Origin: Alphaproteobacteria bacterium
GTDB lineage: Bacteria > Pseudomonadota > Alphaproteobacteria > Micropepsales > Micropepsaceae
Assembly (NCBI GenBank): GCA_028865545.1
Contig: JAGWJY010000004.1
Coordinates: forward strand, 1-64,000
Direction: 5' to 3'
Length of the DNA: 64,000 bases
Shown: in pieces, positions 46,514 through 53,751 of the stretch
Layout of the letters: each line of letters opens with the position of its first letter
How positions within the stretch are numbered: position 1 is the stretch's first letter
Program-made: the position numbers and the translations under genes
Notes under the pieces: generated by a model
The model's input: the letters and a program-made list of their open reading frames with translations, nothing else
The model's database searches: none
Told to the model about the DNA's origin: nothing

Positions 46514-49500
46514 CTACTCCGCCGCGACGCGCTCCGCCTCGGCCAGGGTGACCGAAACCAGCTGGCTGATTCCACGTTCCGCCATGGTCACGCCAAACAG
46601 CCGATGCATGCGCGACATGGTCAGCGCGTGATGGGTGATGACCAGGAAGCGTGTATTGGTGATCCGGGTCATCTCGTCGAGCAGGTTGCAGAAGCGCTCG
46701 ACATTGGCGTCGTCCAGCGGCGCATCCACTTCGTCCAGCACGCAGACGGGCGCCGGGTTGACGAGGAACACCGCGAAAATGAGCGACATGGCCGTCAGCG
46801 CTTGCTCGCCGCCCGATAACAGCGACAGCGCTTGCAGCCGCTTGCCGGGGGGACGGGCGTAGATTTCCAAGCCGGCTTCCAGCGGATCCTCGGATTCGGT
46901 GAAGGTCAGCTTGGCTTCGCCGCCTTCGAACAGTTTCGCGAACAACGTCTGGAAGTTGGCGTTCACTTTCTCGAACGAGGCATGCAGACGCTCGCGCCCT
47001 TCACGGTTCAGGCTCTGGATACCGCGCCGCAGCCGGTCGATCGCGCCGGTCAGATCGTCCCGGTCTCCCGTAAGCGTGGCCAAGCGCTGTTCGTGCTCGT
47101 TGGCTTCCTCTTCCGCGCGCAGGTTCACGCCGCCGAGTTGCTCGCGCTCCTGCTTCAGCTTTTCGACTTTCTTTTCGGCCTGCTCAAGCTGTGGGAGTTC
47201 CTCGTCGTCCTTGAGTTCCGCCAATGCCGCCAGCTCGTCCGGCACAATTTCCAACTCGTCTCGGATGCGTTCGCGAAGCTCAGTGATGCGCGATTGCGCG
47301 CCTTCCAGCAACGCTTCCTCACGGGCGCGTTCCTCGCGGGCGGCGGACAAAGCATGGTCGGCGGCCTTGGCGACCTTGTCGGCTTCGGCGAGACACGCCT
47401 CCGCTTCGGCGCGCGCGTCGCCCGCCTGGTTGCGTGCCGCTTCGGCCACGCCGATGGCGTCGAGCAGCGTGCCGCGCTTTTCCGCGATGGTCTGCGGCAA
47501 AGCCTCGGCAACCGCGAGCTCTTCGTTCAGTTCGCTGGAACGGCGATCCAGTTCGGCAATATGTTCGACGGCCGCACTGCGCCGCGCTTCCCAGCGCGCA
47601 CGTTCTTCGACGATGGCGCTGAGACGTCGGGCTCGACCTTCGCCATCGCGCTTCAGGCCCTCGAGCGTGGCGCGGGCGTTTGAGCTGGCCGCCCGGGCTT
47701 CGCTGGTTTGTTCACGCGCATTAGCGACGCTTTGCGTCAACGCCTGGCCGTCGCCCAGTTCAGCGAGTGCTTGGGCCGCTTGCTGTTCGGATTCCTGCGC
47801 GGCGTCACGGGCCTGCGTCAGCCGGCGAATTTCCGCTTCTAGAGAGGCAAGGCGAGAGGCTCGCTCGGCTGCCGCTCGAACCGCCTTGGTTGCCGCGTCT
47901 TGCGCGGCGATGATGGCGTGCTCGTGACGACGCTCTGACTGTTCGGCCTCGCGGGCAGCATCGCGCGCCGTGCTGGCTGCTTCCTTGGCTGTGGAATAGG
48001 CCGCGAAGGTCGTAGCCCGCGCTTCCTTTGCCGCTACGATCTGCTCTTCGAGCGCCGCCAGACGGTTGTGCTGCGCCAGCCGCACGGCAGCGGCCGACGG
48101 CGCATCCGCCGACGCGCGGTAACCGTCCCAACGCCAGAGATCGCCACGCGGTGACACTAGGCGCTGACCAGCCTTCAATTCCTTTTGCAGGTCGATGCCC
48201 TGATCAGGAAACACGACGCCGGTCATCGACAGACGGCGCGACAGCGCCGACGGACCTTTGACGAACTCCGCGAGTGGCTTGGCGCCTTCGGGCAGAGGCG
48301 CCTTTTCGTCGAAATCTCCAAGATCGCGCCAATGGTGCGGAGCCGCTTCGTCAAGCGGTGCTTCGAGGTCGTCGCCCAAGGCCGCGGCGAGAGCCGCTTC
48401 ATAGCCGGGTTGCACGCTGACGGCGTCCACCAGCGGCGGCCACAAGCTCTGGCCCTCCGGGCGCAGCAGATCGCTGAGCGCCTTGGCTTCCGCCGACAGG
48501 CGCTGCACCTCGCGCTCACTATCTTCCAGCGGACCGCGCGTTGCGGCTTCGGCAAGTTCGGTTTCGGCCAGCTTGGTACGAGCTTCAGCAGCGAGAGCGG
48601 ACGCGGTCTCCGCCAATTGCCGGGCCTCGTCGGCGGAGTCTTCCGCAGCGCGCACATCAGGCGCTGCTGCTGCTCCCTCCATGGCCGTCGTAAGGCGAGC
48701 TTCGGCCTCGACCAGTTGCTGGCCGCTGGTCTCTGCCAGTTCGGCAGCCAGACGGCGCGAGCGCTCCAGGCTATCCTTGCGGGCATTGCGTTCGGCAAGT
48801 TCGGAGGTCAGCCGTTCCAGCAAACGTTCGGCCTGCGCCAGCGCTTCGTTGAGCTCTTCGGCGCGCGTCTGTGCTTCGCCGATTTCGACGCCAGCGCGTT
48901 CCTGCGCAGCTTCGAGTTCGTTGCTTTCGGCCGCAAGCGTGCCCAGCGCGGTTTCAGCGTCGCGATCCAGCGCACGTTCACGCTCGAGATCCTGCGCGGC
49001 TTGCGTCAGCCGCTGGCGCAGCGACTGAGCAAGTTCGCGGGCACGAGCCTCTTCTGCATCCAACGCTTCGCGCTCCACTACCAAGCGATGCAGTGCCGCA
49101 GATTTTTCCGCTTCAATTTGGCGCAATGGGGGCAGGGCGGTTGCCGCGTCGGCTTGTGCAGTCGATGCGTGCGCAGCGTGTTCGGTGCATGTCGCGACAA
49201 CATTGGTGGCCGCGGCGAGCGCCTCTTCCGCCGTCCTGGCGCGCAACTCGGCTGCCGTCCAGCGCAGATAGTGCGCCAGCGCCTCGGCGCGGCGGATGTG
49301 GCCGGAGAGATTGCGATATCGCGAAGCCTGGCGGGCCTGCCGCTTCAAGCTCTGCAACTGGCCTTCCACCTCGCGGATTACGTCATCCAGGCGCGAAAGA
49401 TTGCTCTCTGCAGCGCGCAGCCGCAGTTCGGCTTCATGACGACGTTGATGCAGGCCCGTGATGCCCGCGGCTTCTTCAAGAATGGCGCGGCGAGCCAGCG

Positions 49501-49969
49501 GCTTCTGACTGATCAACAAGCTGATCTGGCCCTGGCGGACAAAAGCCGTAGAGGAGGCGCCAGATGACGCGTCGGCAAAAAAGATTTGCACGTCACGCTG
49601 GCGGACATCGCGGCCATTGATGCGATAGACGGATCCCGCTTCACGTTCGATACGGCGCGAAATCTCAATGGTGTCGTAGTCAGCGTAGGGTGGATTGGCG
49701 CTGCGATCGGAATTGTCGACTGTGAGTGTCACCTCGGCCATGTTGCGCGCTGGCCTGGCCGCCGAGCCGGCGAAGATCACGTCGTCCATTTCCGCACCGC
49801 GCACGGAGGTGGGACGCGTTTCGCCCATAACCCAGCGCAAGGCATCGAACAGATTAGACTTGCCGCAACCGTTCGGGCCGACGATCGCCGTCAGCCCGGG
49901 CTCTATGAAGAGCTCGGTCGGTTCCACAAAGGACTTAAAACCGGATAGCCTTAACCTGCTAAACTTCAA
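46514..49969 (-). CDS. smc: Chromosome segregation protein SMC
   Basis: 1151 aa; MKFSRLRLSGFKSFVEPTELFIEPGLTAIVGPNGCGKSNLFDALRWVMGE; LSLLSGGEQALTAMSLIFAVFLVNPAPVCVLDEVDAPLDDANVERF. Confidence 0.97.
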   Translation of the reverse strand: MKFSRLRLSGFKSFVEPTELFIEPGLTAIVGPNGCGKSNLFDALRWVMGETRPTSVRGAEMDDVIFAGSAARPARNMAEVTLTVDNSDRSANPPYADYDTIEISRRIEREAGSVYRINGRDVRQRDVQIFFADASSGASSTAFVRQGQISLLISQKPLARRAILEEAAGITGLHQRRHEAELRLRAAESNLSRLDDVIREVEGQLQSLKRQARQASRYRNLSGHIRRAEALAHYLRWTAAELRARTAEEALAAATNVVATCTEHAAHASTAQADAATALPPLRQIEAEKSAALHRLVVEREALDAEEARARELAQSLRQRLTQAAQDLERERALDRDAETALGTLAAESNELEAAQERAGVEIGEAQTRAEELNEALAQAERLLERLTSELAERNARKDSLERSRRLAAELAETSGQQLVEAEARLTTAMEGAAAAPDVRAAEDSADEARQLAETASALAAEARTKLAETELAEAATRGPLEDSEREVQRLSAEAKALSDLLRPEGQSLWPPLVDAVSVQPGYEAALAAALGDDLEAPLDEAAPHHWRDLGDFDEKAPLPEGAKPLAEFVKGPSALSRRLSMTGVVFPDQGIDLQKELKAGQRLVSPRGDLWRWDGYRASADAPSAAAVRLAQHNRLAALEEQIVAAKEARATTFAAYSTAKEAASTARDAAREAEQSERRHEHAIIAAQDAATKAVRAAAERASRLASLEAEIRRLTQARDAAQESEQQAAQALAELGDGQALTQSVANAREQTSEARAASSNARATLEGLKRDGEGRARRLSAIVEERARWEARRSAAVEHIAELDRRSSELNEELAVAEALPQTIAEKRGTLLDAIGVAEAARNQAGDARAEAEACLAEADKVAKAADHALSAAREERAREEALLEGAQSRITELRERIRDELEIVPDELAALAELKDDEELPQLEQAEKKVEKLKQEREQLGGVNLRAEEEANEHEQRLATLTGDRDDLTGAIDRLRRGIQSLNREGRERLHASFEKVNANFQTLFAKLFEGGEAKLTFTESEDPLEAGLEIYARPPGKRLQALSLLSGGEQALTAMSLIFAVFLVNPAPVCVLDEVDAPLDDANVERFCNLLDEMTRITNTRFLVITHHALTMSRMHRLFGVTMAERGISQLVSVTLAEAERVAAE

Positions 49970-50008: not shown

Positions 50009-51025
50009 TCAGTGCTTGGACAGCAGAGAATCAAATCTAGCCTTCAACGAAGGCCACGTCGCATCTTCGGCCTGTACCTCGGTTCCATTGATGATGAACG
50101 TCGGCACACCCTGGATGTTGTATTTTGTCTCGCCGTCCTGGGCGACTTGATTGATGCGATCCTGCTCACTCTTGTCCGCAATGCATTGGTCGACTTTCTC
50201 GGCGCTCATCCCATAGACACGCGCCAACTGGATAAGCCCGCCGCGCACGTCGGTCACACCATATTCCGGGTCCCATTTGGGCTGATTCCGGAACAGAAGG
50301 TCAATGAATTGAAAATACTTATCCGCAGGCAAACAGCGGGCGATCGCCTCGGCGGCCGGGTCGGCAGGGTTAATGGGGAAAACGCGGAAGATATAAAAGA
50401 CCTTTCCGGTGTCGATGTAGTTCTTTTTGACGAGCGGAAAGATCGTCTGGTCGAAATGAGAACAATGCGGGCAGGCTGGTGCCGCGTACTCGAGAACCGT
50501 GATCGGGGCCTTGGGATTACCCAACGTCCGATCATGCTCGTAAAGCTGGACTTGCAGCGTGCCGCCATTTGCGATTGTCAGATCGTTGGACCCGCCTGTG
50601 AAGACGAAAAGATAGAGGACGGCGGCGGCCACGACCAGCACGACAGCGACCGACGCAATTATGATCTGATTGCGCGTGAACAGCGGCGCGCTTTGGTCGC
50701 GTCGCGAGGTTTCTGCCTTTGGGGCAACTTTTGGTTTCTTTGCGGCTTGCACCTTTGCAGGCTCTGCAGCCCGCAGAAAGCCGCGCAAGGCATCAATCTC
50801 GAAGCGCTCGGCTTTTGCCATCTCGGTCTGGCCCGCCGCACTGTAGGATGCTGCCTGCTGCTCGCGCTCCATGATGATCTTGCTGATGATCGCATGAATA
50901 TCGCTGTCGGTGGCGCCCGGCTGCGCATCGACCGTCGAGATGACGGCCCGCAAAGTCGAAAGGCGGCGCTCGTTATCGGTCGGCGTCGAGTTAAGGGCGT
51001 CGTTGAGCAGGTCCCTAAGGGCCAT
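50009..51025 (-). CDS. Membrane-anchored DsbA-family thioredoxin-fold protein with an N-terminal YqeY-like domain
   Basis: 338 aa; C-terminal YAAPACPHCSHFD and NIQGVPTFIINGT (DsbA-like); TM IIIASVAVVLVVAAAVLYLFVF; N-terminal ~88 aa resembles YqeY. Confidence 0.85.
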   Translation of the reverse strand: MALRDLLNDALNSTPTDNERRLSTLRAVISTVDAQPGATDSDIHAIISKIIMEREQQAASYSAAGQTEMAKAERFEIDALRGFLRAAEPAKVQAAKKPKVAPKAETSRRDQSAPLFTRNQIIIASVAVVLVVAAAVLYLFVFTGGSNDLTIANGGTLQVQLYEHDRTLGNPKAPITVLEYAAPACPHCSHFDQTIFPLVKKNYIDTGKVFYIFRVFPINPADPAAEAIARCLPADKYFQFIDLLFRNQPKWDPEYGVTDVRGGLIQLARVYGMSAEKVDQCIADKSEQDRINQVAQDGETKYNIQGVPTFIINGTEVQAEDATWPSLKARFDSLLSKH

Positions 51026-51063: not shown

Positions 51064-51553
51064 TCAGCTTCCCATATTAGTCCGACTCCGGCGGGCGCGG
51101 GCAAGGTCTTGAAGTGCGGCGCGAAGCCCATCTGGCCCCTTATATTTTAGGATCGGATCGGTCGGTGGGATGCTCGCCGGAGAAGGCCGGAGGGGGGGCG
51201 GGGCCGGCCGGACAGCGAGCGGCCCCTGTACAAACCGCAGCCGAGCGACCGCCGGGTGACCCAGATAGGCGTTGATTCTTTCGCACAAGGGGCGGGTTTC
51301 GTGCTGCAGGAACAGCGCGGCACCCGGCTCGGCCTTGAGCGTCAGTACCCCGCCGTTCGGCCCCTGCGAGAAACGTATGGGACGGGCCAATCGTGCGGTT
51401 TCAGGGCCGGCGATTTCCTCCCAGCGCAGCACCAAGGTCGGATCGGAAAACCCCGCGCGGGCAAAGGCGGAATGGGCAACTGTCGTTGCGTTAGGCGCCA
51501 GGGGCGACACCCAGTTGCGCCGTTCGCCTTGTTCAGCTTTGCCGGATCGGGCC

Positions 51554-51555
<2 letters not shown>
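51064..51555 (-). CDS. DciA-like (DUF721) protein
   Basis: LVLRWEEIAGPETARLARPIRF...GGVLTLKAEPGAALFLQHETRPLCERINAYLG. Confidence 0.8.

Positions 51556-53751
<2,196 letters not shown>

Follow-up and report, generated by a model that had tools for sequence, protein, structure and literature searches.

A half-length YqeY domain joined through a predicted transmembrane helix to an alpha-DsbA1-like domain in an alphaproteobacterial genus

Organization of the fusion gene

The window, the whole 64,000-nucleotide stretch of alphaproteobacterial DNA analysed here, carries one intact open reading frame of 338 codons plus a stop codon at positions 50009-51025 on the minus strand. A sequence-only reading had noticed this uninterrupted frame without giving its strand and had described a YqeY-type domain, one transmembrane (TM) segment and a DsbA domain in a single chain; all of the features that it quoted were found. 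The gene starts with ATG and is preceded by GGAGA, and the GGAG core was found again upstream of most of the fused relatives. It lies between dciA (DUF721; 51064-51639, minus strand; PF05258, 49.5 bits) on its upstream side and smc (46514-49969, minus strand; PF02463, 200.5 bits) on its downstream side, both of which belong by synteny to a conserved locus.

The N-terminal domain is the first half of YqeY

Residues 1-86 (50768-51025, minus strand), which include the N-terminal sequence quoted earlier (MALRDLLNDALN), are predicted to form four helices (residues 2-13, 19-33, 40-63 and 67-86). The Pfam YqeY family, PF09424, matched residues 8-84 of the whole protein at 27.4 bits (curated cut-off 27; E=4.2e-6) and residues 1-110 alone at 30.9 bits (E=3.4e-7), and 7 of the 17 fused proteins matched it with an E of 0.01 or less. 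None of the NCBIfam models scored above cut-off against the fusion protein. A phmmer search of the PDB aligned residues 16-88 with YqeY (8xjg, E=1.5e-5), and a profile built from the fused N-domains retrieved mostly YqeY-sized open frames from the class and phylum samples; the frames that were read out among these matches were YqeY. The domain alone was modelled by AF2 with a pLDDT of 89.0, and pLDDT across residues 1-86 was mostly 87-97. When the predicted domain was compared with the PDB by Foldseek, the top five matches were all YqeY (8xjg/8xje; probability 1.00, TMq 0.72-0.75, best E 2e-3), and no non-YqeY structure appeared at probability 0.7. The agreement of Pfam, phmmer, the fused-domain profile and Foldseek shows that the N-terminal domain is homologous to YqeY, and no competing family emerged from Pfam, phmmer or Foldseek to displace the original assignment.

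That assignment stands for the N-terminal four-helix half of YqeY but not for the rest of the domain. Like free YqeY (PF09424; 8xjg, 8xje), the fusion protein has the N-terminal four-helix domain with the RRLxTLR, ERE and G-x-x-x-x-A-x-x-E-x-x-EI patterns, whereas the C-terminal three-helix half and the KDRDIAAR loop occur in free YqeY only, and the TM segment and DsbA domain in the fusion only. The PF09424 match covers profile positions 9-87 of 143, after which the linker and TM segment come next. In a comparison of 18 fused N-domains with 49 free YqeYs, the C-terminal half was missing from all 18 fused copies, and the KDRDIAAR loop, which is conserved in alphaproteobacterial YqeY and kept by the free proteins, was deleted from every one of them.

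A separate, complete YqeY is encoded on another contig of the same genome, and one is present in almost every genome of the genus, indicating that the fused domain is a derived half-length paralogue; replacement of the normal YqeY by the fusion is thereby ruled out. These results do not bear out the link to tRNA or amidotransferase that the sequence-only reading had implied: only the N-terminal half is present, the loop is gone, and a complete YqeY is encoded separately. We also asked whether a reversal of charge would prove that RNA binding was lost. The N-domain differs only slightly in charge from the N-terminal halves of free YqeYs and the net charges overlap, so no such proof is supported, and a loss of RNA binding is argued from the missing loop and the missing half alone.

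The DsbA domain resembles Wolbachia alpha-DsbA1

Residues 163-338 (50012-50539, minus strand) constitute a DsbA domain. Thioredoxin_4 (PF13462) matched residues 164-319 at 117 bits, and the Pfam DSBA family matched the protein at 25.8 bits. The motif APACPHCSHF contains the active site C185-P-H-C188, and GVPTF contains the cis-proline, Pro308. The best sequence and structure match was in both cases Wolbachia alpha-DsbA1: phmmer against the PDB gave E=8e-26 with both cysteine pairs aligned, and Foldseek of the full model gave 3f4r as the nearest structure (E=1.5e-13). The earlier identification of a DsbA-like domain with CPHC and a cis-proline was thus borne out.

A second cysteine pair, C231/C281, is invariant in the alignment of fused proteins (A1) and aligns with C97/C146 of alpha-DsbA1; we infer a C231-C281 disulfide bond. 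In alpha-DsbA1 the non-catalytic pair C97/C146 inhibits the enzyme's oxidation by alpha-DsbB, and conservation of the pair extends to other DsbAs of alphaproteobacteria (PMC3839904). The Wolbachia protein (PDB 3f4r/3f4s/3f4t) shares with the fusion its DsbA fold, its second cysteine pair and its alphaproteobacterial origin, but it lacks a YqeY domain and has a CYHC (Tyr-His) active site in place of CPHC. DsbB is encoded in the genome (PF02600, 96 bits; G000:C5:58479-58916), which together with the CPHC motif and the cis-proline supports a thiol oxidase. The fusion protein is best read as a putative membrane-anchored, periplasm-facing thiol oxidase of the alpha-DsbA1 type.

The two domains are predicted to lie on opposite sides of the membrane

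Between the two domains are a Lys/Ala/Pro linker (residues 87-119; 50669-50767, minus strand), which is net positive and predicted to be disordered, and a single TM helix or signal anchor (residues 120-142; 50600-50668, minus strand; IIIASVAVVLVVAAAVLYLFVF at about residues 121-142). The linker sequence varies among the fused proteins, each of which has one TM-like stretch. In the window protein, Kyte-Doolittle hydropathy reaches 3.00 over residues 121-139, flanked by charges of +3 on the N-terminal side and -2 on the C-terminal side. Across the fused proteins the net charge of the flanks ranged from 0 to +7 (N-side) and from -3 to 0 (C-side), and the N-flank was the more positive in 17 of the 18, with a tie in the other. 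By the positive-inside rule, this pattern places the YqeY half in the cytosol and the DsbA domain in the periplasm. Hydropathy and charge therefore predict the arrangement across the membrane that the sequence-only reading had proposed.

The full-length AF2 model, made from an alignment of 17 fused proteins, had a mean pLDDT of 86.6 and contained four N-terminal helices, a disordered linker (pLDDT <50 at residues 92-98 and 103-117), a helix at 118-142 and the DsbA fold. Its pTM of 0.56 means that the relative placement of the YqeY and DsbA ends is not predicted.

The fusion is confined to one clade in the genomes sampled

Eighteen fused genes, with identical domain order, were found on screening 69 genomes of the genus; they occur in 12, six of which hold two. 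The conserved locus reads rnhB-methyltransferase-mutY (opposite strand)-dciA-dsbA-smc-atpB, and its dciA-dsbA-smc slot is occupied by either a fused or an unfused dsbA. Nearly all of the 18 fused genes lie in this slot, so the same N terminus does recur on DsbA beside smc in related genomes; in the exception, G083, two of its three genes are on contigs without the locus neighbours. Unfused relatives at the same locus start at or just before the TM segment, which indicates that the YqeY domain was added in front of the signal anchor.

DsbA copy number in the dciA-smc slot varies widely across the genus. Unfused tandem copies between dciA and smc occur at L107 (G006) and in other unfused members, and one subclade (loci L077, L078, L079 and L082) has dciA flanked by three DsbA genes: before it a short one with a signal-like N terminus, and after it a pair of half-YqeY fusions. 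In this tandem pair the YqeY half of the first fusion has diverged further.

An SMC tree was rooted with seven outgroups, whose branches are long, and among fused genomes was restricted to those with a long SMC. In it the nine fused genomes formed one clade (SH-aLRT 99) that arises from within the unfused genomes, and every member of this clade in the tree retains the half-YqeY. The fused N-domains also formed one clade against free YqeYs (100/100). Each of these two trees requires a single change, and on this sequence evidence they show that the half-YqeY was gained once; repeated independent fusion is unneeded. The tree of the DsbA domain alone requires five changes, with weak forks. The fused N-domain, on a long branch (1.9), clusters with YqeYs from the genus itself (85/91), suggesting that it likely descended from the resident YqeY.

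Outside the genus, the fused-N-domain profile revealed no DsbA fusion among 385 class and 399 phylum genomes sampled, as judged by open-frame length and by reading selected frames. A 664-aa frame in G803 proved to be YqeY behind a long open frame, and a 714-aa frame in G154 was read around its YqeY part. No YqeY-DsbA fusion was found in the open-access literature searched. The architecture is rare and, in everything searched, does not correspond to a catalogued or common DsbA subfamily, in line with the earlier view of it as unexpected.

The half-YqeY is under purifying selection

For six pairs of fused genes, Nei-Gojobori dN/dS of the N-domain was 0.10, 0.11, 0.14, 0.19, 0.15 and 0.01, and that of the DsbA part, in the same order, was 0.04, 0.03, 0.03, 0.18, 0.12 and 0.24. 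By this measure the N-domain is under purifying selection, and its low values (0.01-0.19) argue that the half-YqeY has been kept for a function. Together with the 18 fused homologues of identical domain order in 12 genomes, they also indicate that the gene is not a chance frame. A chance frame or an assembly fusion is ruled out, the fusion being present in 12 genomes and in two close species at 86-89% identity.

Proposed role of the half-YqeY

We propose that in one clade a copy of YqeY's N-terminal half was added to the cytoplasmic end of the signal anchor of a DsbA oxidase. The oxidase would probably be reoxidized by DsbB, whose gene lies elsewhere in the genome, with the second cysteine pair modulating it. 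The half-YqeY would not act on tRNA; on the cytoplasmic side of the membrane it would serve as a module for protein contact or assembly, placing or grouping the oxidase. With moderate confidence, and by analogy, we favour such a cytosolic docking or assembly module over a part of a tRNA enzyme. The precedent is NUQM, a YqeY-superfamily bridge subunit of mitochondrial complex I in Pichia pastoris, which shares with the fusion its superfamily and an N-terminal four-helix bundle, and whose bundle contacts proteins at a membrane complex; unlike the fusion, NUQM is eukaryotic, keeps both halves and is not fused to an enzyme (PMC12487887).

Next in order, though rather unlikely, is oligomerization, in which the half-YqeY, at the cytosolic end, would pair or trimerize the anchored DsbA, changing its substrate range or giving it isomerase activity, after the model of the N-terminal stalks of ScsC-type enzymes. 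Self-association is frequent among four-helix domains. The full model also matched the ScsC structures 7rgv and 5idr in Foldseek, but at an rmsd of 12-16 A, which indicates that the match stems from the DsbA domain; alpha-DsbA2 and ScsC are described as trimers (PMC6450060).

Two further explanations rank lowest and equally so. It is improbable that a YqeY-like contact with RNA or the translation apparatus holds the oxidase near translating ribosomes and lets disulfides be made on chains entering the periplasm: YqeY genes frequently adjoin rpsU and preliminary evidence exists for OLE RNA binding by YqeY (PMC12054373), and the related helical and tail domains of GatB touch tRNA (PMC4027206), but all 18 fused copies have lost the C-terminal half and the KDRDIAAR loop, and the genome retains a complete free YqeY. 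The extension is just as doubtful as a passive cytoplasmic tail that aids stability or insertion of the signal anchor with no specific partner, since, although the unfused relatives manage without it and the first tandem copies of the duplicated clade have diverged further in the domain, the low dN/dS, nine residues invariant across 18 copies (L3, A10, T14, R21, I51, G65, A70, E73 and E76) and retention by every clade member in the SMC tree stand against it.

The fusion has partial parallels in other proteins. GlnRS with an appended YqeY domain, in Deinococcus and others, is likewise joined to it by gene fusion, but there the domain is C-terminal and cytosolic and raises tRNA affinity, whereas in the window it is N-terminal, half-length and linked through a TM segment to a periplasmic enzyme (PMC3927822). 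YqeY is a widespread protein of unsettled function, and the fusion keeps only its N-terminal half, under purifying selection and apart from the tRNA machinery. This suggests that the half is an independent module for protein contact, with which the Pichia complex I case agrees, and a binder of the cytosolic half should reveal what it recognizes. In M. tuberculosis Rv2969c and B. subtilis BdbD, too, an N-terminal anchor tethers a DsbA domain to the membrane. Neither is known to have a folded cytoplasmic domain. A DsbA with such a domain would let a periplasmic oxidase be controlled from the cytoplasmic side. Only as an outside chance might the half-YqeY couple periplasmic oxidative folding to a cytoplasmic event, be it translation, translocation or the neighbouring DciA/SMC machinery; if so, the fusion would be a transmembrane link from cytoplasmic state to disulfide formation.

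SMC proteins encoded beside the tandem fusions

Directly downstream of the tandem YqeY-DsbA genes at loci L082, L078, L077 and L079 (genomes G010, G007, G061 and G062), smc encodes proteins of 1364-1528 aa, compared with about 1156 in relatives. The extra length consists of two inserts of exactly equal size, one on each side of the hinge (99/99, 121/121, 176/176 and 187/187 aa, or 9, 11, 16 and 17 times 11 residues). They are encoded by 33-bp tandem repeats, EREGRAALETA-like before the hinge and YQAAKAAAEEA-like after it, and look like an in-register lengthening of both hinge-proximal coiled-coil strands in 11-residue steps.
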